Of a DNA stretch of 35,619 bases, positions 2,045 through 33,998 are shown one piece after another. Within the stretch, counting starts at the first letter, position 1. Each line of letters opens with the position of its first letter. The stretch is taken from the IMG/VR virus record IMGVR_UViG_3300043015_000268, positions 1 to 35,619 of that record. One strand, 5' to 3'. This DNA is from a virus. The translations under genes and the position numbers were made by a program. The notes below the pieces were generated by a model. That model searched no databases, was not told where the DNA came from, and saw only the letters and a program-made list of their open reading frames with translations.

Positions 2045-2386
2045 ATGTCTAGAAACAATAACAACATTCGCAAATTGATCGCTGCACTCGAAGAGTTCAA
2101 AAAGATCGATCCAACGATGTCGCTACCCTCTATGCTTACCATGCTTTACTACCACAATGTGGAGAACAACAGCGGGAATAGGTCTATCGTTGAAGAGCGT
2201 CTTAATATGTCAGGTGCAACCGCATCACGTGCGACCCTTTACTGGTGTGAACACAAGACACCACGCGAAAAAGGGCAGAACATGTTGGAGATGATTCAAG
2301 ACCCCATGAACCGCCGTGCGAACATTGTCCAGTACAATCGCAAGGGTTTGGAGTTTATGGAAAAACTTAGCGAGGTATTAGAATGA
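2045..2386 (+). CDS. MarR-like winged-helix regulator paired with integrase
   Basis: 113 residues. Residues about 27-108 read as a MarR-type winged helix: SLPSMLTMLYYHNV (first helix), RSIVEERLNMSGATASRATL (helix-turn-helix), then the wing IQDPMNRRANIVQYNRKG and a closing helix. GGGAAC at 2034-2039 can serve ATG 2045. The stop overlaps the integrase start (ATGA at 2383), so the two are probably translated together. MarR-like proteins beside integrases in related phages may regulate integration or act as excision factors; that role is inferred from position only. Confidence 0.7.
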   Translation: MSRNNNNIRKLIAALEEFKKIDPTMSLPSMLTMLYYHNVENNSGNRSIVEERLNMSGATASRATLYWCEHKTPREKGQNMLEMIQDPMNRRANIVQYNRKGLEFMEKLSEVLE

Positions 2387-3387
2387 GCGTTGCGCAGCGA
2401 GGGAGTAAGTTTCAAGCGCGGGTGAAAGAACCCAACGGCGGTAAATACCATCGCGTAACCTTTGACACCTTAGAGGCCGCTGAGTTCTGGGAAGGGAAGG
2501 CTAGGGCAGCGATCAAAGCTGGCCTACCTGTGCCTGATGGTTGCGATATGGGAACTGTTACCCTTCGCTCTCTGGCTGACAGATACCACGCTTACCTGTG
2601 GCCTAACCAGAGGCGCAAGATGATCGAGACAGACATTCGCCACGCGGAGCGTTTGCTTCCTTCCGACCCTCTAAAACTTACGACAAAGGATGTTATACGT
2701 TTCGTTGAAAAGCGTAAGATGGAAGGGGTAGGGGACACCACGATCAGGATCAACCTGACCCGTGTGAAGACTCTGCTCAAACACAGTCATAAGATGGGCG
2801 ACATCCATCTAAGCAACAACATCGAGTGGCCCTCGTTCCGCGCGGGAAGCAGCCGCATCCGTTATCTCACAGATGATGAAGAAACAGCCCTTTTAGACGA
2901 ACTCAATATCCTAGACTATCGGATGCTTGCGGAGTTCATGATCGACACAGGTGTGAGACCCTCAGAAGTCTCCACGACCCAAGCGGTGGTCGCCAAGCCC
3001 TTCGAGTGGGCTGACGTATCCAAGAGCAAGGACGGGCGTACCCTGATCACCCTGTGGAAGACCAAGACCAACACACCACGCACCTTGCCGCTGACACCAC
3101 GCGCCCTTGAGGCTCTGGAGTGGTCACGCGAGGAAGGACACCAGCGACCCTTTGATGGTATCTCATACACTGCATTCAAGGATGCCGTTGTAGCCGCCGC
3201 CCAGCGCAGAGGCTTAAAGGATATCGTTGTATATACATTCCGCCACACCTGTGCCTCTAGGCTAGTCCAGAGGGGTGCTGACATCATGCGGGTGAAGCAA
3301 TGGATGGGCCATTCTAACATCGAGACCACGTTAGGTTATGCCAAGCTGGCCCCAGAAGACATTTATAGCTTGTCTGATTTGTTGTGA
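2383..3387 (+). CDS. int: Tyrosine recombinase / phage integrase
   Basis: 334 residues, a normal length for a phage integrase. The order is an N-terminal arm-binding region (QRGSKFQARVKEPNGGKYHR), a core-binding helical domain (about 60-145) and the catalytic domain. Visible catalytic residues are R192 (DTGVRPSE), a Lys in LWKTKTNT (K226 or K228), R287 and H288 (YTFRHTCASRL), H310 (GHSNIETT) and nucleophile Y319 (LGYAKL). The usual first His of box II is Y284. All key positions are filled, so the enzyme should be active. GAGG at 2372-2375 is the ribosome binding site. It implies the phage can integrate, and the attachment site should lie close by. Confidence 0.95.
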   Translation: MSVAQRGSKFQARVKEPNGGKYHRVTFDTLEAAEFWEGKARAAIKAGLPVPDGCDMGTVTLRSLADRYHAYLWPNQRRKMIETDIRHAERLLPSDPLKLTTKDVIRFVEKRKMEGVGDTTIRINLTRVKTLLKHSHKMGDIHLSNNIEWPSFRAGSSRIRYLTDDEETALLDELNILDYRMLAEFMIDTGVRPSEVSTTQAVVAKPFEWADVSKSKDGRTLITLWKTKTNTPRTLPLTPRALEALEWSREEGHQRPFDGISYTAFKDAVVAAAQRRGLKDIVVYTFRHTCASRLVQRGADIMRVKQWMGHSNIETTLGYAKLAPEDIYSLSDLL

Positions 3388-3408
3388 CACAAGCGTGACA
3401 CGGTGACA
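3384..3408 (+). repeat. Three GTGACA direct repeats after int (possible arm-type sites)
   Basis: GTGACA occurs at 3384, 3395 and 3403, starting on the integrase stop codon. The first lies within TGTGACAC (3383-3390), whose exact reverse complement GTGTCACA occurs at 3601-3608 across the control region. Short repeats beside an integrase gene are typical of arm-type integrase or excisionase binding sites. This is inference from position and repetition; no core attachment site was identified. Confidence 0.3.
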
Positions 3409-3420
3409 TGACACCAAGAT

Positions 3421-3461
3421 AAAAAAAAGGGTAAGCCTTTGATTTAACAAGAGGCTCACCC
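3421..3461 (-). terminator. Intrinsic terminator facing leftward
   Basis: GGGTAAGCCT (3429-3438) pairs with AGGCTCACCC (3452-3461) with one mismatch, and the stem extends by two weaker pairs inward. The run of eight A at 3421-3428 is a T8 tract when read on the minus strand, immediately after the stem. Read on the + strand there is no T-tract, so it would stop transcription coming from the polymerase side towards int. No minus-strand gene is seen nearby. Confidence 0.6.
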
Positions 3462-3522
3462 ATGTACCAGTGGCACAAGTCAACAGGGAGTTGGAAATAT
3501 CAAAGTTAAGTTGGACGAACAC

Positions 3523-3540
3523 TTACTCTAGCGTGAGTAA
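3523..3540. promoter_or_regulatory. Palindrome TTACTC-N6-GAGTAA (possible operator)
   Basis: Perfect 6-bp arms with a 6-bp spacer. It lies between int and the RNA polymerase gene, 117 bp before the polymerase start, and partly resembles the TTACG-N4-CGTAA palindromes nearby. A repressor site is possible; the binding protein is unknown. Confidence 0.35.
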
Positions 3541-3569
3541 ATAAATCCATATTTTCTGTGTTTTCAATA

Positions 3570-3585
3570 GTTACGATACCGTAAC
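3570..3585. promoter_or_regulatory. Palindrome GTTACG-N4-CGTAAC (possible operator)
   Basis: Perfect 6-bp arms with a 4-bp spacer (ATAC). The same core, TTACG-N4-CGTAA, recurs just after the RNA polymerase gene at 6147-6160. Repetition of a symmetric 14-bp site at both ends of the polymerase gene fits a dimeric DNA-binding regulator, perhaps one of the two winged-helix proteins upstream. The regulator is inferred. Confidence 0.45.
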
Positions 3586-3616
3586 AGACCCTGAAACGCT
3601 GTGTCACATCAGTAAT

Positions 3617-3636
3617 CCATTATTCACCCTTTCTAG
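3617..3636 (+). promoter_or_regulatory. Phage-type promoter candidate P1 (upstream of RNA polymerase)
   Basis: CCATTATTCACCCTTTCTAG matches the site at 33979-33998 at 18 of 20 positions and shares TCACC-N4-CTAG with others at 6172 and 7842. By comparison with T7/T3 promoters the final G (3636) would be +1. The transcript would then carry a 20-nt leader with GGAG before ATG 3657. The presence of this site implies that the polymerase can transcribe its own gene. Confidence 0.55.
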
Positions 3637-3656
3637 ACATCCCAATGGAGACATCT

Positions 3657-6143
3657 ATGTACACAAGAGAACTTATAGATACCCAACATATCCTCGAAGA
3701 AGAAATGCGAGGGGCGGCGATCACGCGGTTCCACAACAGGCACAACAAAGCTTTAGAAAAGAAATTCTTTGGTGAGAGTGCGGCGGGACAGACGATCTTA
3801 CGACAGGTAATTCAACCGTTTAGCGATGCGATCACTGAGTGGACACAAGAGGCACTGACAGGGACCACAGGTCGCCGTAGCACAGCCGCTCTTATGGTCA
3901 GTGAGTTTGATGATACGGACGCAATGGCGTACATCTTTGCAAAGGCGGTGATCAACGCCGTGCCTATGCTACAGAACAAGCAAGGGACAGCATCACGCAC
4001 GGGTGTCGTACTGACCTCGACCAACGCGATCCACGATGAACTGAGACTGAGATGGTTTAACAAAAACTATAACCTGATTTTCAGACGAATCATGAAAGAC
4101 TGCGACACACGTAACCTTCCACGCCAACGCCGCAAGGAAGTCTATCGCAAAGAGTTCACACGTAGACAGATCGAATGGGTAGCCGACAACTGGCATACCA
4201 AAAACCGTGTGCATCTAGGCATGAGATTGCTAGAGATATTTAAAGAGGTCACGGGCATGATCCGTTTCTCTGAGGTACGCATGAGCAATGGCAAACGCCG
4301 TGCGATTGTCGAGGCCACACCTGAACTCATGGAGATGCTGAAGGAACGCTTGGAGCGTTGCGAGAACATGTTCCCTATCTTTTACCCTATGGTAGTCAAG
4401 CCACGCCAGTGGACTAACGACATGCTGATCGGTTCATCATACCTCACGAACAACGTGCAGCCATACAAGCTGATTAAACGTGCAAAGATGAACTACATCA
4501 GGGAACTAGAGAATACCGACATATCCATCACGCTCAACGCTGTGAATGCACTGCAAGAAACACCGTGGCGTGTGAACACTGAAATGCTAGAGGCATTGCG
4601 GTGGGTGTACGACAACAGCTTGCAGGTGGACAAACTACCACCGGCTGATGATCTACCTCTGCCACCCTTACCGGCAAACATGGATGACGATAAGGCACGT
4701 AAACAAAATGCGGCGGCTTGCGCTCATGTGCATAACCAAAACAGAAAGTTTGTGTCTAAACGTCTAGCGTTGCTACAGGTGATGCAGCTTGCGGAAAAGT
4801 TCAAAGACTTTAATGAACTGTATTTCCCACACGATCTCTGTTCACGTGGTCGCGCATACCCGAAGCCTCACTATCTAAATCCACAAGGTCCAGCGTATGT
4901 ACGCAGCCTGTTAGAGTTCTCTGAGGGTAAACCGATAGAGACTGAATCGCAGGTCGAGTACATTGCAATCGTAGGGGCAAACGCATGGGGGCATGACAAG
5001 CTACCTATGAAGGAACGCATCCAGTGGGTGTGGGACAACGAGGACATGTTCGTGCAGATCGCGGATAACTGGAAAGAGGATCGCCGTTGGTTCGATGCCG
5101 ATTCACCTTTCGAGTTCCTACGTTTTTGTCTGGAGTGGCGTGGCCTCAACGATACAGGTGTTGGCTATTACAGTCACATGCCGATCAACTTCGATGCTAC
5201 GTGTTCAGGTCTACAACACTTCTCAGCGTTGCTCAAAGACAAGACAGGTGGTTTCAATGTCAATCTGACAGCCCACCCAGAACGTCAAGACATCTACGGC
5301 GCAGTCGCAAAGAAAGCGAAAGCGGCGATTGAGGCTGATATTCACTGCAAAGAGAAAGGCACCCTTGCGAGGGCTGCACTTGAACTGAAGGTGGATCGTA
5401 AGTTGTGCAAGCGGCCTGTGATGATCGTGCCATACTCAGGGACGTTCAAAGCTTGTATGCGGTATGTACAAGAGCATTACGATGAAATGCGTGATGCGGG
5501 TGTGAAGATGCCTTTACGTGACGAAGAGACTTCATACAGACTCGTACCCTACGTTGCCCGTAAGGTGTGGGATAGTATCTCTGACACTGTCGTAGCTGCA
5601 CGTGATGCTATGGATTGGATCACAAAGATTGCGAGGTTAGTTACGAAGAACGAGAACCCACTACCATTCATGTGGACAACACCGACAGGCTTTGTCGTAC
5701 AGCAAGCTAAGTACAGCATGGATCGGCACTCTGTGCAGACTATGATCGATGGGCGTATGTTGAAGGTAGAGTTCTTAACGGACTCAAAGGTACTCGACGC
5801 AAACAAGAATGCGCAGTCTCTGTCACCTAACTACATCCACAGCATGGATGCGGCACACTTGCAAAAGACGATTAACCTTGCGCTCAACAGTGGGCGAGAC
5901 ATGTCGTACTGCATGATCCACGATAGCTTTGGCGTTCACGCGGCAGACATGGATTACTTTCTGCATCAATGCATCAAGCCTAGCTTCTATGACATGTACA
6001 AGGATGGGAATGTTCTACAGAAATTCTTAGATGAAATCTTTCCGCTGATCCCTGAAAAGTCGCGGGACAAGATACCGCCGCTACCTGATCTTGGTGACTT
6101 GGAGATTTCTGAGGTACTTCAGAGTGAGTTCTTTTTTAGCTAA
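3657..6143 (+). CDS. T7-type single-subunit DNA-directed RNA polymerase
   Basis: 828 residues from ATG 3657 (T7: 883). I prefer 3657 over ATG 3645 because GGAG at 3647-3650 is correctly spaced for it and 3645 has no ribosome binding site. Catalytic landmarks of the T7 family are present: D513 in DATCSGLQHFSA (T7 D537), K585 and Y593 in KRPVMIVPY (T7 K631, Y639), SPNYIHSMDAAHLQKT, and H755-D756 in MIHDSFG (T7 H811-D812). The C-terminus is aromatic (EFFFS), as in T7 (FAFA). It should transcribe the middle and late genes from the phage-specific promoters listed here. Confidence 0.97.
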   Translation: MYTRELIDTQHILEEEMRGAAITRFHNRHNKALEKKFFGESAAGQTILRQVIQPFSDAITEWTQEALTGTTGRRSTAALMVSEFDDTDAMAYIFAKAVINAVPMLQNKQGTASRTGVVLTSTNAIHDELRLRWFNKNYNLIFRRIMKDCDTRNLPRQRRKEVYRKEFTRRQIEWVADNWHTKNRVHLGMRLLEIFKEVTGMIRFSEVRMSNGKRRAIVEATPELMEMLKERLERCENMFPIFYPMVVKPRQWTNDMLIGSSYLTNNVQPYKLIKRAKMNYIRELENTDISITLNAVNALQETPWRVNTEMLEALRWVYDNSLQVDKLPPADDLPLPPLPANMDDDKARKQNAAACAHVHNQNRKFVSKRLALLQVMQLAEKFKDFNELYFPHDLCSRGRAYPKPHYLNPQGPAYVRSLLEFSEGKPIETESQVEYIAIVGANAWGHDKLPMKERIQWVWDNEDMFVQIADNWKEDRRWFDADSPFEFLRFCLEWRGLNDTGVGYYSHMPINFDATCSGLQHFSALLKDKTGGFNVNLTAHPERQDIYGAVAKKAKAAIEADIHCKEKGTLARAALELKVDRKLCKRPVMIVPYSGTFKACMRYVQEHYDEMRDAGVKMPLRDEETSYRLVPYVARKVWDSISDTVVAARDAMDWITKIARLVTKNENPLPFMWTTPTGFVVQQAKYSMDRHSVQTMIDGRMLKVEFLTDSKVLDANKNAQSLSPNYIHSMDAAHLQKTINLALNSGRDMSYCMIHDSFGVHAADMDYFLHQCIKPSFYDMYKDGNVLQKFLDEIFPLIPEKSRDKIPPLPDLGDLEISEVLQSEFFFS

Positions 6144-6171: not shown

Positions 6172-6191
6172 GAGTTAATCACCATTACTAG
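6172..6191 (+). promoter_or_regulatory. Phage-type promoter candidate P2 (start of DNA metabolism block)
   Basis: GAGTTAATCACCATTACTAG. It resembles the T3 promoter (AATTAACCCTCACTAAAG) at about 12 of 18 positions when the final G is set as +1. It matches the site at 7842-7861 at 17 of 20 positions, and the match continues through the following AAAA. It lies 17 nt before ATG 6209, the first gene after the polymerase. Confidence 0.6.
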
Positions 6192-7116: not shown

Positions 7117-7525
7117 GAAAGCTGTTGGTCTGAAATATGGGTTTCGTTCAGGATTAGAAGAACGAATCTCAAAAGAGCTACAAGACACAGGGTGTTGCTT
7201 CACATACGAAGAGGAAGCGATACACTACGTCAAACCAGCTCGACAGAGTAAGTACACACCTGACTTTATTATACAAAAACGTCCTGATGGTACATCTAAG
7301 AAGCGGCCTTTAGTAATTGAATCTAAGGGCCGGTTCCTTACGGCAGATAGACAAAAACATTTATTGATTAAAGACCAACACCCAGACATAGACATTCGGT
7401 TCGTATTCTCGAACTCACGCCAGAAGATCAGCAAGCAATCAAAGACCACGTATGCAATGTGGTGCGAGAAGCACGGCTTCAAGTATGCTGATGGTTCTGT
7501 GCCGGATGAATGGCTACGAGAATGA
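7076..7525 (+). CDS. T7 gp3-like endonuclease I (Holliday junction resolvase)
   Basis: 149 residues, the same length as T7 endonuclease I. The catalytic signature is complete: E28 (FRSGLEE), D63 (KYTPDFI) and E82-x-K84 (VIESKGRF). The N-terminus is very basic (MTQRKKRKSTTTSKKAVG). It overlaps the SSB gene by 41 nt in another frame. In T7 the enzyme resolves branched DNA and helps degrade host DNA to supply nucleotides. Confidence 0.9.
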   Translation: MTQRKKRKSTTTSKKAVGLKYGFRSGLEERISKELQDTGCCFTYEEEAIHYVKPARQSKYTPDFIIQKRPDGTSKKRPLVIESKGRFLTADRQKHLLIKDQHPDIDIRFVFSNSRQKISKQSKTTYAMWCEKHGFKYADGSVPDEWLRE

Positions 7526-7529
7526 ATAC

Positions 7530-7955
7530 ATGTACAACAACAATAAGAAGCGTGAACAAACGCTCTACATGATCATCGATCACACAGGCACGACACCTAA
7601 CATAGAAATCGATGCGCAAAACTTAGACAACCGAGATCGCTCGAAAGGGTATTTCGGTTGTCGATACCATTACGTCATCACACGTGATGGAAGTGTGCAA
7701 ACAGGTAGAACACTGGACCGCGTATCGCCGCTGACCGGTGTCTATGATTATCTATCGATAGCTGTCTGTTTAGTCGGTGGAAAGAACATAGAGGGTGAAC
7801 CTGAAGACAACTTCACGGATGAACAAAAAGCAGCCCTGAAAGAGTTAATCACCGTATCTAGAAAATCGTATCCTGAATTACAGGTACTTGGACGCAAAGA
7901 AGTACGGCGACAGCGTACTACTGGTCCCGCTCTTGATCTCACACCTTTCAGATAG
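7530..7955 (+). CDS. T7 lysozyme-like (amidase fold) protein, zinc ligands degenerate
   Basis: About 141 residues from ATG 7530; ATG 7506 and ATG 7569 are alternatives. The fold signature of T7 gp3.5 is clear: YHYVITRDGSVQTGR and SIAVCLVGG, then a C-terminal PALDL. In T7 lysozyme zinc is bound by His17, His122 and Cys130. Here the RAHHEV block reads LGRKEV and CPSFDL reads GPALDL, so the second His and the Cys are gone. The first His region is IIDHTGT, ambiguous by one position. The conserved Tyr of YHY (T7 Tyr46) remains. Peptidoglycan cleavage is unlikely; the RNA polymerase-binding function of T7 lysozyme could remain. Position after gp3 matches T7. Confidence 0.8.
   Translation: MYNNNKKREQTLYMIIDHTGTTPNIEIDAQNLDNRDRSKGYFGCRYHYVITRDGSVQTGRTLDRVSPLTGVYDYLSIAVCLVGGKNIEGEPEDNFTDEQKAALKELITVSRKSYPELQVLGRKEVRRQRTTGPALDLTPFR
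7842..7861 (+). promoter_or_regulatory. Phage-type promoter candidate P3 (inside lysozyme-like gene)
   Basis: GAGTTAATCACCGTATCTAG lies within the lysozyme-like gene, 103 nt before the primase-helicase ATG. It matches site P2 (6172-6191) at 17 of 20 bases, and both continue AAAA. Since it is inside a gene, codon constraint must be considered, but the long match to an intergenic site favours a promoter. Confidence 0.45.
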
Positions 7956-12853: not shown

Positions 12854-13528
12854 GTGCGTAAGAAAACCTATAAAGACAAAGTGCGAGAGGCTTCAGACAA
12901 TAAACAGGTGCAGCCTCTCCTACCCAAAACCCCAGCGCAAAAAAACTACATGGAATGTATCTACAGGTTTCCGCAAGTGTTCGTTACAGGACCGGCAGGG
13001 ACAGGTAAAACGTACATAGCCGCCGCAATAGCCGCTGACATGTTCAACAAACGACAAGTCACAAAGATTATCCTGACCCGACCTAACATACCGGCAGGTA
13101 AATCTTTGGGTTTCTTTGCGGGAACCATAGAGGACAAAATTGCGCCGTGGGTTGTCCCTCTGACAGAGGTATTGGAGCAACGACTAGGCAAGGGCCGCTA
13201 CGAGGTGGCCTTGAAACGCAAGGATATTGAGATCGTACCTTTTGAGGTTATGCGTGGTCGCTCATTCAATAATGCCTTTGTTATTTTAGACGAAGGACAG
13301 AACTTAACACCCCATGAAATGAAGATGTTCCTCACTCGAATAGGTGAAGACACAAAAGTTGTAGTCAATGGCGACCTATTGCAGCACGACCTGAAGCAAG
13401 ACTCAGGGTTAACCATAGCTATAGACCTGATATTTAAACATAATATTGAGGCGGCGGTGTGTAATTTTACACACGATGATGTCGTTAGGTCAGGTATTTG
13501 TGCGCAATGGACACGTGCTTGGGGATAA
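12854..13528 (+). CDS. phoH: PhoH-like ATPase
   Basis: 224 residues with a GTG start at 12854, two bases after the previous stop. Walker A is GPAGTGKT (46-53) and Walker B is FVILDEGQN (D146, E147). KIILTRPNIPAGKSLGFFAG, FEVMRGRSF and VVVNGDLLQHDL are characteristic PhoH blocks. phoH is widespread in marine phages, where a role in RNA metabolism or phosphate stress has been proposed but not settled. It closes the DNA metabolism block. A long inverted repeat (13457-13474) lies near its 3' end. Confidence 0.92.
   Translation: MRKKTYKDKVREASDNKQVQPLLPKTPAQKNYMECIYRFPQVFVTGPAGTGKTYIAAAIAADMFNKRQVTKIILTRPNIPAGKSLGFFAGTIEDKIAPWVVPLTEVLEQRLGKGRYEVALKRKDIEIVPFEVMRGRSFNNAFVILDEGQNLTPHEMKMFLTRIGEDTKVVVNGDLLQHDLKQDSGLTIAIDLIFKHNIEAAVCNFTHDDVVRSGICAQWTRAWG
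13457..13474. repeat. Perfect inverted repeat GTGTGTAA-TT-TTACACAC in phoH
   Basis: 8-bp arms separated by TT, 54 bp before the phoH stop. There is no following T-tract, so it is not an intrinsic terminator. It could be an mRNA hairpin or protein site just upstream of promoter candidate P4, or coincidence in coding sequence. Confidence 0.3.
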
Positions 13529-13544
13529 TCTTAACCGTTACTAG
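13525..13544 (+). promoter_or_regulatory. Phage-type promoter candidate P4 (start of structural block)
   Basis: ATAATCTTAACCGTTACTAG shares 15 of 20 positions with the site before the MazG gene and ends ACTAG like P2. It starts inside the phoH stop codon and lies 18 nt before ATG 13563, the first gene of the structural block. This is where a T7-type late promoter is expected. Confidence 0.55.
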
Positions 13545-25210: not shown

Positions 25211-28200
25211 ATGGACAATAACCAAGGACAACCCTCTCAAGAGGTGTTGGATCGCCTGTTTGAGAACAGGAATGATCCTAATGTTCTGGCAGCATTTAAT
25301 CAACGCTTCGGCGCAAATGCCGCTGAGAACTATTTGAATGACACGGCGAGTGCAACTCTAGAGAACGAAGCCTTGGTTATTCCACAGGCTGACATAACGT
25401 ACCTCAAGGAAAACTCAGATAACCAAGCGGCTATCATGGCGTTTGATAAGATGCACGGTGCCGGTCAAGCACAAGCAATTCTAACACCCACACAACAAAC
25501 TCAGACTGAGGAAAGACCAAGCTACGGTGCAGATATCTTACAAGGTATCGCCGCCGGTGCTGAAGACATTGTCACAGGTACAATTAAGTTCGGTAGTTGG
25601 GTAGGCGATAGTCTATTCGGTGTACAACCTCGCGTAGTCTGGGGTGATGGTCAGGGACTTCGTATCATATCAGGTGAAGAGTTCTTAAAGCTACAAGAGC
25701 AAGGTATGACAAACCCAGAGGGGTTCGATTACATCGCTGATGCAGAAACTATGGTAGGCGGGTTTGCCCAAGGGGTAACCACGTTTGCCGTACCTTACTT
25801 CGGTATGTTTGGTAAGATCGCTAAGTCTGGCAAGGTATTCCAAGGTATCATGGCGGGTGCCGTGATCGATGGTACAATTATCAACCCAGATGATCCAAAC
25901 CTTACAGCAACCTTAGAGGCACTTGGGGCAGACACAGGTATCGTTGGGGAACTCCTAGCGACAGACCCAGATGATCCTGAGTGGATGAACCGTGCGAAGA
26001 ACATGGCTGAAGGTGGTGTCTTAGGTCTAGCACTAGAAAGTGTTTTCTATGGATTAAAAGCGGCGAAAGCGAAGAAAGCTGGAAACCTAGAGGAAGCCCA
26101 AGAGTACCTAGACCAAGCCAAGGCAGTTTCTCAGTCAATCGATCAGGAAATCGACAGTGTAGCACAGGCTGCTACTAAGGACGCTGAGACAACCATTGAG
26201 ATGACCAAGCGTTTATTTCCTGAAGAGGAAGTCGATGGTCAGATGACGCTCGATTTGGAAGGAACTGTGCCACAAAGTAAGGAAGCTATCGAAAAAGCTG
26301 TCAAAGTCCCATATCGCCTTACTTCTGAGCAAATTGAAAACATCCGCATGATGACCAAGATTGGTGATCTAGACCCACAGGATGCAGCACAAGCTGTCAA
26401 GCTATCTTTCCGCTCAGTGGACACCATGAATGACTATGACGATGTTCTATCACAGATGTCGGCAGTTAAGCATGTCATGGAGAAAGAGTTCCTAGAGATG
26501 CGTGGTGGTGACGTACAGCGTTGGTCTACTGTGAAAGCACAGACGACACGCCGAGTGCGCCACATGGCTGATATGCTAGGTAAAGACCCAGAGGCATTCC
26601 TAGAGGAAATGACAGGTGGGTTCAAAGATGTACCTTATCACAAACTAGCCGCCGAAGTCGCTGCTAAAGACCGTATGCTTCTAGCTATGGAACTAGAGAT
26701 CAAAGAACTTGGTCAGATGATCGATAGCGGTAAGGTGACAGGTAACTACCAGAGCATGGAAGAGGTCATTATGGCCTTTAACGCTCGACGCGAAGTGGCT
26801 GCAAACGTGCTGATGTCAGTAGACGCTGCACGGGCTAACGTAGGTCGCGCATTGAACGCCATGAAGATGTCACGAACAGCCGATAAGAAGCTACGTGAGA
26901 TGATCAAGAACGCTGCGTCTAATTCAGATGCACGGGCGGTGGCGAAAGCTGTGGTAAACTCAGATCAACCTCTGAAAACCTCGCTACGTCTTGGCAAGTC
27001 CTTGCAGAAAACGATGGACATGGTGAACCACTTCCGCATCAACGCTTTGTTGTCAGGTATTGGTACACAACAGGTCAACTTGATCGGTACAGCGGTTAAC
27101 TCTGTGATGATCCCCATGCAGCAAATCTTGGGTGGTCAGGTTAAACACGGGGTACGCACACTCGCATATCAATTATCATCCTCTCTAGAGGCACTACAGA
27201 TGGCGGGTAAGGCGTTCATGGACGACACATCGATCCTTGACGTTCTATCGACTAAATTCGACATGACCGATGATATCGCCAAAGGCCGCAAGGGTCTTGG
27301 AATGAAGGTTATCTCTTCACCGTCACGTTTCTTGCTTGCTATGGACGAGTTCTTCAAACAGGCGACATATCGTGGTCGTATATCGGCTGATGCGGCGATG
27401 GAAGCTGACAACGCTGGACTAAAAGGTGCAGAACGTGCAGAGTTCATGCGTAAGTACATCTTAGACAGCTTCGGCAAGAACGGTGAGGCTATACGTGCGG
27501 ATGCATTGCTACAGTCACAACGTAGTTCATTTACTGAATCACTAGAAGCAGGTTCTATAGGACAGAAATTTCAGTCTCTAGGTCGTGGTGAGGGTGTCGG
27601 CTCAGCTATGTTCCGGTTTGTCGTTCCGTTTGTTCGCACTCCGATCAACATTCTAAGCCAATCTTTCCAAAACATGCCGGTGTTACAGTTTGCATCTAAG
27701 CGTTTTAGAGATGATCTATACAGTGGTGACCCAATTCGCGCGGCTCAAGCCCGTGGTAAAATATACACAGGGTTTGCCTTACTTGGATTAGGTTATTTCC
27801 TCGCAGGGCGTGGAGACTTCACAGGTTCTGGCCCTACAGACCCACGTATCCGCGCAGAGTGGTTAAAGAACAACCAACCTTACTCTATTAAAATTAGTAG
27901 AGATGATGGTTCGTTCTATTGGATGTCATATCAACGACTAGAGCCACTAGCTAACGTTCTTTCTATTCTTGCAGATGCTAACGAGGTCATACGTGATCCA
28001 TACAATGAACGTGAGACATCAAAACAGAACGTAGTAGCGGCGTTGGCGTTAGCCATAGCTGAAAACACAGTGAACAAGACGTTTACTAAAGGTCTAGCTG
28101 ACACCTTTGCTCTAATGATGGGTGATCCGATTAAGTCTGAACGTGCATTGTATAGCATTGCCGGTTCGTTTGTTCCTAACATCTTGAACCAAACTAATGG

Positions 28201-33978: not shown

Positions 33979-33998
33979 CCATTCTTCACCGTTTCTAG
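33979..33998 (+). promoter_or_regulatory. Phage-type promoter candidate P5 (upstream of MazG/RNR block)
   Basis: CCATTCTTCACCGTTTCTAG is 18 of 20 identical to P1 upstream of the RNA polymerase gene. It lies in the 47-bp gap after the small terminase, 23 nt before ATG 34022. Near-identity between two distant intergenic sites is the best single piece of evidence for the promoter family. Confidence 0.65.

Follow-up and report, generated by a model that had tools for sequence, protein, structure and literature searches.

The Pseudomonas phage LUZ100 provides the closest described system. An experimentally mapped phage promoter, phi1, lies directly before its RNA polymerase gene (about 60 nt ahead), a MarR-like gene and an integrase gene lie upstream, and a positive-feedback model has been put forward for the arrangement (PMC10134795). 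That paper leaves as a question what first activates the polymerase, and it quotes Boeckman et al. 2022 as proposing MarR sites near the polymerase promoter (quotation in PMC10134795). The same autocatalytic loop, in which a polymerase gene is placed under a phage promoter recognized by its own product, exists in engineered form as the T7 autogene (PMC6395690). In the Pseudomonas phage gh-1, an annotated phage promoter, also named phi1, occupies the same position before the polymerase gene, but this phage is lytic, the host promoter A4 is adjacent, and the motif is T3-like. No phage promoter was found within 300 nt upstream of gene 1 in T7, where the weak phiOL promoter lies far upstream of that gene.

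The sequence analyzed here (the window), a 35,619-base contig from IMG/VR, represents part of the genome of a T7-like marine bacterial virus. It carries early genes, genes for a MarR-like regulator, a tyrosine integrase, and an RNA polymerase, replication and structural genes, and mazG, and it ends in the ribonucleotide reductase region, after which the large terminase gene would come (Table 1). CRP-118, a Roseobacter phage, is a close relative (86.7% identity over 94% of the first 25 kb of the window); the Roseobacter phages CRP-403 and CRP-804 are more distant. All three belong to the same phage group and contain the seven promoter sites, the palindromes, the regulator, and the integrase discussed below; promoters are not mentioned in the paper describing their genomes (PMC11092137). 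The 113-aa regulator had no match of its own in a Pfam search, and its PHROG is also that of the MarR proteins of LUZ100 and CRP-125. The polymerase retains the catalytic residues aligned to D537, K631, Y639, and D812 of T7. An ATG at 3645 was considered as its start, but 3657 (ATGTACACAAG) is most likely and matches the annotated start in CRP-118.

Three features of the relatives' gene models bear mention. The annotated MarR gene of CRP-118 (L001, 1468-1647) is too short; the full 113-aa frame spans 1306-1644 and is 96% identical to that of the window. The ribonucleotide reductase of CRP-118 (L001, 34084-36157) is annotated as two open reading frames 400 nt apart, whereas CRP-403 has a single one. 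The polymerase of contig L017 (2362-5070) has about 68 extra residues that duplicate adjacent sequence, either an assembly artifact or a real duplication.

Table 1. Promoters, genes, and candidate regulatory elements in the window, in order of position
Feature	Positions	Strand	Basis or remark
MarR-like (winged-helix) transcriptional regulator, candidate repressor	2045..2386	+	113 aa; phrog_9665, E 3e-16
Tyrosine integrase	2383..3387	+	Pfam PF00589, E 7e-18; phrog_1
Likely attP region	3384..3607	.	Sequence; conserved in 11 loci; geometry of prophage relatives
Intrinsic terminator-like hairpin GGGTGAGCCT...AGGCTTACCC, then eight T	3420..3466	-	Fold -23.5 kcal/mol; aligned hairpin in relatives
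Diverged dyad TTACTC-N6-GAGTAA, possible second operator	3523..3540	.	Exact TTACG-N4-CGTAA there in L017
Palindrome GTTACG-ATAC-CGTAAC, candidate operator upstream of P1	3570..3585	.	TTACG-N4-CGTAA at 3571
P1, promoter of the polymerase gene	3617..3636	+	27.4 bits; predicted +1 at 3636
T7-class single-subunit RNA polymerase	3657..6143	+	828 aa; phrog_414, E 8e-219; Pfam PF00940
Palindrome TTACG-CTAA-CGTAA, candidate operator before P2	6147..6160	.	Three nt past the polymerase stop codon
P2, first middle promoter	6172..6191	+	24.3 bits; predicted +1 at 6191
P3, in the 3' part of the amidase gene, before primase/helicase	7842..7861	+	24.2 bits; predicted +1 at 7861
P4, before the structural block	13525..13544	+	19.9 bits; predicted +1 at 13544
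P5, before mazG and ribonucleotide reductase	33979..33998	+	25.3 bits; predicted +1 at 33998

The putative promoters form a repeated short motif found mostly in gaps ahead of gene blocks and always oriented with transcription. All five 20-mers lie where a preliminary description of this DNA had placed them, with the pairwise matches it gave (18/20 for P1 and P5 and 17/20 for P2 and P3). A matrix trained on the five returned the same five as its top matches over both strands, with leave-one-out ranks of 1, 1, 1, 2, and 1. The scores in Table 1 come from a leave-genome-out matrix trained on CRP-118, CRP-403, and CRP-804 only, by which P1 to P5 rank first in the window (19.9 to 27.4 bits). The next plus-strand match scored 15.2 bits, 4.7 lower, and the best minus-strand match scored 14.6 bits, while first-order Markov resamples of the window gave an expectation of 0.13 matches of at least 15 bits. 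The motif is not equally frequent inside genes or on the minus strand. Two candidates for additional promoters, at 27169 on the plus strand (15.2 bits) and 16818 on the minus strand (14.6 bits), were rejected; both fall within coding sequence or at its beginning and lack the full invariant block.

The distances from site to start codon, 20, 17, 18, and 23 nt for P1, P2, P4, and P5, agree with the earlier view that four of the sites occupy short intergenic gaps, except that P4 overlaps the last 4 nt of phoH; the amidase gene that contains P3 spans 7452-7955. All five positions are conserved as orthologous sites in CRP-118, CRP-403, and CRP-804. P3 orthologs are also present in most contigs, P2 was found in 15 of the 15 loci examined, and P1, the one family copy directly ahead of the polymerase gene, is kept wherever the region is available among close relatives (12/12 loci of this phage group). 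The family, first described as having five members, has at least seven, two of which fall beyond this fragment: each of the three complete Roseobacter phage genomes combines the five orthologs with a divergent pair of sites close to the right end. Contig L009, which matches the window at 99.9% identity over 13.5 kb, also has the pair, located 1.3 kb leftward of where the window begins. In the relatives the minus-strand member faces a minus-strand glutaredoxin-thymidylate synthase cluster, and the plus-strand member precedes the early genes and so could also feed the MarR, integrase, and polymerase genes.

The divergent pair occupies 39254-/39272+ in L001, 38585-/38606+ in L002, 40616-/40655+ in L003, and 2349-/2367+ in L009. 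Such a pair is atypical of T7-like phages, in which transcription is almost entirely confined to one strand.

Across 26 sites in four genomes, T-12, A-10, C-9, C-8, T-6, T-2, A-1, and G+1 are invariant, T-15 and C/T at -3 are nearly so, and the stretch from -17 to -13 is AT rich. This composition suggests a promoter in which an AT-rich upstream part (-17 to -13) is followed by the recognition block (T(C/a/t)ACC, -12 to -8) and an invariant T-6, with initiation predicted at the G of (C/T)TAG. The promoters of T7 and T3 are similar in being served by a T7-class polymerase, in initiating at G, in their AT-rich upstream part, and in a recognition block at -12 to -8, but in sequence the match is no better than chance (6 to 8 of 18 positions). 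The likeness of P2 to the T3 promoter (AATTAACCCTCACTAAAG) that was initially suggested did not hold up: aligned at +1, the two agree at 6/18 positions, a value equaled by 43% of shuffles, and the resemblance is a chance one.

The relationship between the motif and the polymerase is most apparent at position -11. A C occupies this position at 4/5 sites in the window, 6/7 in CRP-118, and 7/7 in CRP-804, whereas CRP-403 has A or T there (C at 0/7 sites versus 17/19 elsewhere; p = 5e-5). In T7 polymerase, residue N748 contacts -10 and -11 (PMC5937735, citing Raskin 1992). At the equivalent position the window and its close relatives carry Q, the only exceptions being CRP-403 and its near twin L011, which carry R; this covariation represents one evolutionary event in which further loop residues also differ. 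Since seven scattered sites have shifted jointly at -11 with the residue that reads this position, the sites are, on this comparative evidence, promoters served by the T7-class RNA polymerase that the phage itself encodes, as the preliminary description proposed; orthologous sites in three complete relatives and the conservation of P1 argue for the same assignment, and a register with +1 at the G of CTAG fits the joint change. As a cross-check, the polymerases of prophages L057 and L076, which combine an acidic residue at 748 with R756 and Q758, pair with CCCT in a repeated element. The gh-1 promoter also has CCCT at the matching place, as does that of T3.

It is highly improbable, and already contradicted, that the 20-mers reflect chance, coding conservation, or host sigma-70 promoters. 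The intragenic position of P3 would suit such an explanation, as would a presumed alphaproteobacterial host, whose promoters would be poorly known, but the leave-genome-out scan and random sequences oppose chance, a -35/-10 pattern is absent at the sites, the seven CRP-403 sites changed together alongside the polymerase, and the sites vary between phage groups with their layout kept. Taken as promoters for the phage enzyme, they would add a new polymerase-promoter pair with a natural specificity variant (Q or R at the 748 equivalent; C or A/T at -11) that could be useful for orthogonal transcription.

The arrangement around P1 resembles that of LUZ100, in that P1 lies between the integrase and polymerase genes and a MarR-family gene and the integrase gene are directly upstream. 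The other sites are placed like the remainder of the LUZ100 phi1 to phi8 series, which lie after the polymerase gene, after the amidase gene, before the structural block, and near the terminase gene, and for which feedback is likewise proposed. The LUZ100 motif, AATTACCACACAG...GG, differs from the TCACC....CTAG of the window, and the polymerases are 33% identical. Of the two phages, only LUZ100 has a tRNA-Leu between the MarR and integrase genes and mapped starts, those of the window being predicted. The preliminary description had held that P1 creates positive feedback absent from T7; feedback is indeed predicted and the contrast with T7 is correct, but an autogenous copy is not in itself new for the family, having been mapped in LUZ100 and annotated in gh-1.

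In other phage groups the position of the site is kept and its sequence is changed. CRP-125, CRP-113, and CRP-227, for example, have copies of a GGTTGCACC element on both sides of the polymerase gene and at other borders between blocks. Polymerase loci were compared by asking whether an 18-mer matching at 16/18 positions or better occurs both within 300 nt ahead of the gene and within 220 nt behind it. Outside the window's own group, this was the case in 22 of 80 independent loci versus 12 of 1,092 cross-genome pairs, and in none of all 91 loci when the reverse strand was used; in about 7 of the 22, the shared element resembles a palindrome more than a promoter. The remaining 58 loci, the majority, lacked a strong repeat flanking the gene by this test. 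The test is conservative, since the window itself reaches only 15/18. No two-sided element was found at 16/18 in T7, SP6, gh-1, HTVC048P, or HTVC200P, some of which may have weaker motifs or other spacing. A phage promoter ahead of the polymerase gene is thus common among integrase-bearing T7-like phages and prophages. In CRP-227 (L022), two promoter-like copies, at 4017 and 4291, lie between the integrase and polymerase genes, and the motif, TTAGGTTGCACCTAA, is itself palindromic.

The gap between the integrase gene and P1 has features of an attachment site. GTGACA is repeated at 3384, 3395, and 3403, and an inverted copy, TGTCAC, at 3602 adjoins P1, while a conserved inverted repeat, CAACAGGGAGTTGG, at 3481-3494 is a candidate attP core. 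The gap looks like attP arms and core, although the core itself is inferred. No tRNA marking an attP was found in the window. The T run of the terminator-like hairpin is on the minus strand, which would leave plus-strand readthrough to the polymerase gene open.

Further indications come from integrated relatives. In free phages, the regulator and integrase genes directly precede the polymerase gene. A regulator of this family was present in 18 of the 20 bacterial genomes with a T7-like polymerase that were searched, and in all 16 prophages for which the polymerase and the regulator-integrase pair could be placed on one contig (L029 and L039 were left out) the pair lay 34.6 to 39.3 kb downstream of the polymerase in the same orientation. 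Displacement of the pair by one genome length is the permutation expected if attP lies between the integrase and polymerase genes, so that integration separates the two. In a Methylovorus prophage (L050), a 60-bp tRNA-Leu repeat marks both attL, 281 nt before the polymerase gene, and attR, about 140 nt after the integrase gene, and a weak promoter-like repeat (15/18) sits between attL and the polymerase gene. Shorter tRNA-derived repeats in L026, L032, L037, and L062 are consistent with this picture, and in Reyranella (L074) the order is tRNA-Leu, a perfect promoter-like repeat, and polymerase. By analogy with such relatives, whose polymerases are 29 to 40% identical to that of the window, attP would lie in this gap and the phage would be capable of lysogeny, as a temperate member of the Autographiviridae. 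No close integrase that would mark a prophage of the window's own lineage was found in 391 Rhodobacterales genomes, and short matches to the attP region in two genomes were rejected as prophage traces, being at chance level for 391 genomes. The LUZ100-like prophages L114, L115, and L116 have, like LUZ100, a tRNA-Leu between the MarR and integrase genes, here at the far end of the prophage.

These observations bear on whether the sites could be true promoters with P1 serving no feedback switch, the polymerase mRNA being mostly host made and P1 providing a late top-up or a primer for replication, a function that phage promoters near origins have in T7. Lytic gh-1, too, has its annotated phage promoter before the polymerase gene and beside a host promoter, so that the arrangement is not tied to lysogeny, and polymerase mRNA is already high by 1 h in the pelagiphage HTVC022P (PMC12753301). 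Against this, promoter-like repeats persist between attL and the polymerase gene in integrated relatives even though the gene is there apart from the regulator-integrase operon, and a scan for a host sigma-70 promoter before the polymerase gene found none. We regard this account of P1 as quite unlikely and favor autogenous feedback.

Two palindromes flank the polymerase gene. TTACG-N4-CGTAA occurs twice in the window versus 0.037 expected occurrences, once upstream of P1 and once before P2, and both places are kept in relatives, with mismatches in some. Upstream of P1 in L010, both arms have changed in step to TTACC-N4-GGTAA, although ahead of P2 this contig has a degenerate copy. In each of five unrelated lineages (L059, L066, L067, L075, and L103), a palindrome of other sequence lies upstream of the polymerase gene, with a second copy beyond it, three or four nt past the stop codon or nearby. 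An identical dyad flanks the polymerase gene in 6 of 80 independent genomes (300 shuffles averaged 0.12 such genomes and never exceeded 2); in the sixth of these, CRP-227, the dyad is promoter-like. The palindrome is probably an operator of the MarR-like repressor, and the 113-aa regulator is the natural candidate to bind it since it shares a PHROG with the LUZ100 MarR protein. Repressor binding ahead of a T7-class promoter does not necessarily shut that promoter off. With 31 nt separating the end of the P1 palindrome from the 20-mer, a bound repressor may serve as a roadblock to transcription reading through and not as a block on P1.

The palindromes might alternatively be RNA hairpins, either RNase III sites or 3'-end stability elements. 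That the second palindrome starts three or four nt past the polymerase stop codon in every lineage would fit such a role, and gh-1 has annotated RNase III stem-loops near promoters. The arms, however, are only 5 to 7 bp, the same palindrome also occurs well upstream of the polymerase gene, its sequence varies by lineage as would be expected of sites tracking a changing repressor, and the one-family regulator is as widespread in such genomes as described above. Overall, hairpins appear unlikely, and the operator reading is preferred.

Taken together, we read the locus as an integration-gated, repressible positive-feedback switch, and we consider it likely that the family consists of phage-polymerase promoters with P1 providing autogenous feedback and that integration at attP together with the MarR-like repressor holds the loop off in the lysogen. 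Early in infection, transcription by host polymerase would cover the regulator and integrase genes and continue across the attP region into the gene for the phage polymerase. The initial molecules of this enzyme would fire P1 and the right-end plus-strand promoter, producing self-amplification of a strength that we can only infer, and would then activate the middle and late blocks through P2 to P5 and the right-end pair. Integration between the integrase gene and P1 would place the regulator-integrase operon at the opposite end of the prophage, leaving the polymerase gene without transcription from the upstream operon, while the MarR-like protein, bound to the palindromes beside P1 and P2, would keep the loop off. 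The promoter family, its joint change with the polymerase, the conserved P1, the permuted gene order in prophage relatives, and the conserved palindromes are read directly from sequence; the start sites, the binding of the repressor, and lysogeny of this phage are predictions. Since the polymerase gene is taken off the host-read operon upon integration, a self-amplifying P1 with bracketing operators could be the lysis-lysogeny switch. Unlike the engineered T7 autogene, this loop would be natural and apparently linked to repression and integration. A purpose for the feedback is suggested by features missed in the preliminary description, namely the pairing of regulator and integrase genes, the likely attP, and the palindromes beside P1 and P2.

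More tentatively, with a probability a little short of even, an integration-gated autogene may be common to T7-like temperate phages: integration at an attP between the MarR-integrase operon and a self-driven polymerase gene would by itself disconnect that gene from host-read transcription, and a lineage-specific operator pair bracketing the gene would hold its own promoter and the first middle promoter. If this is true, lysogeny and induction would be set by a DNA rearrangement combined with a repressible positive-feedback loop. Reading the locus as a switch also makes the question of first activation in LUZ100 testable. The general geometry and the bracketing palindromes may be new, although part of this is possibly contained in Boeckman et al. 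2022.

Variants of the P1/P2 palindrome, TTGCGNNNNCGTAA, also occur in several relatives (39220 in L002, 41354 in L003, 1075 in L013, and 4963 in L015), either within the early region or close to the end of the genome, and are perhaps operators for an early promoter.
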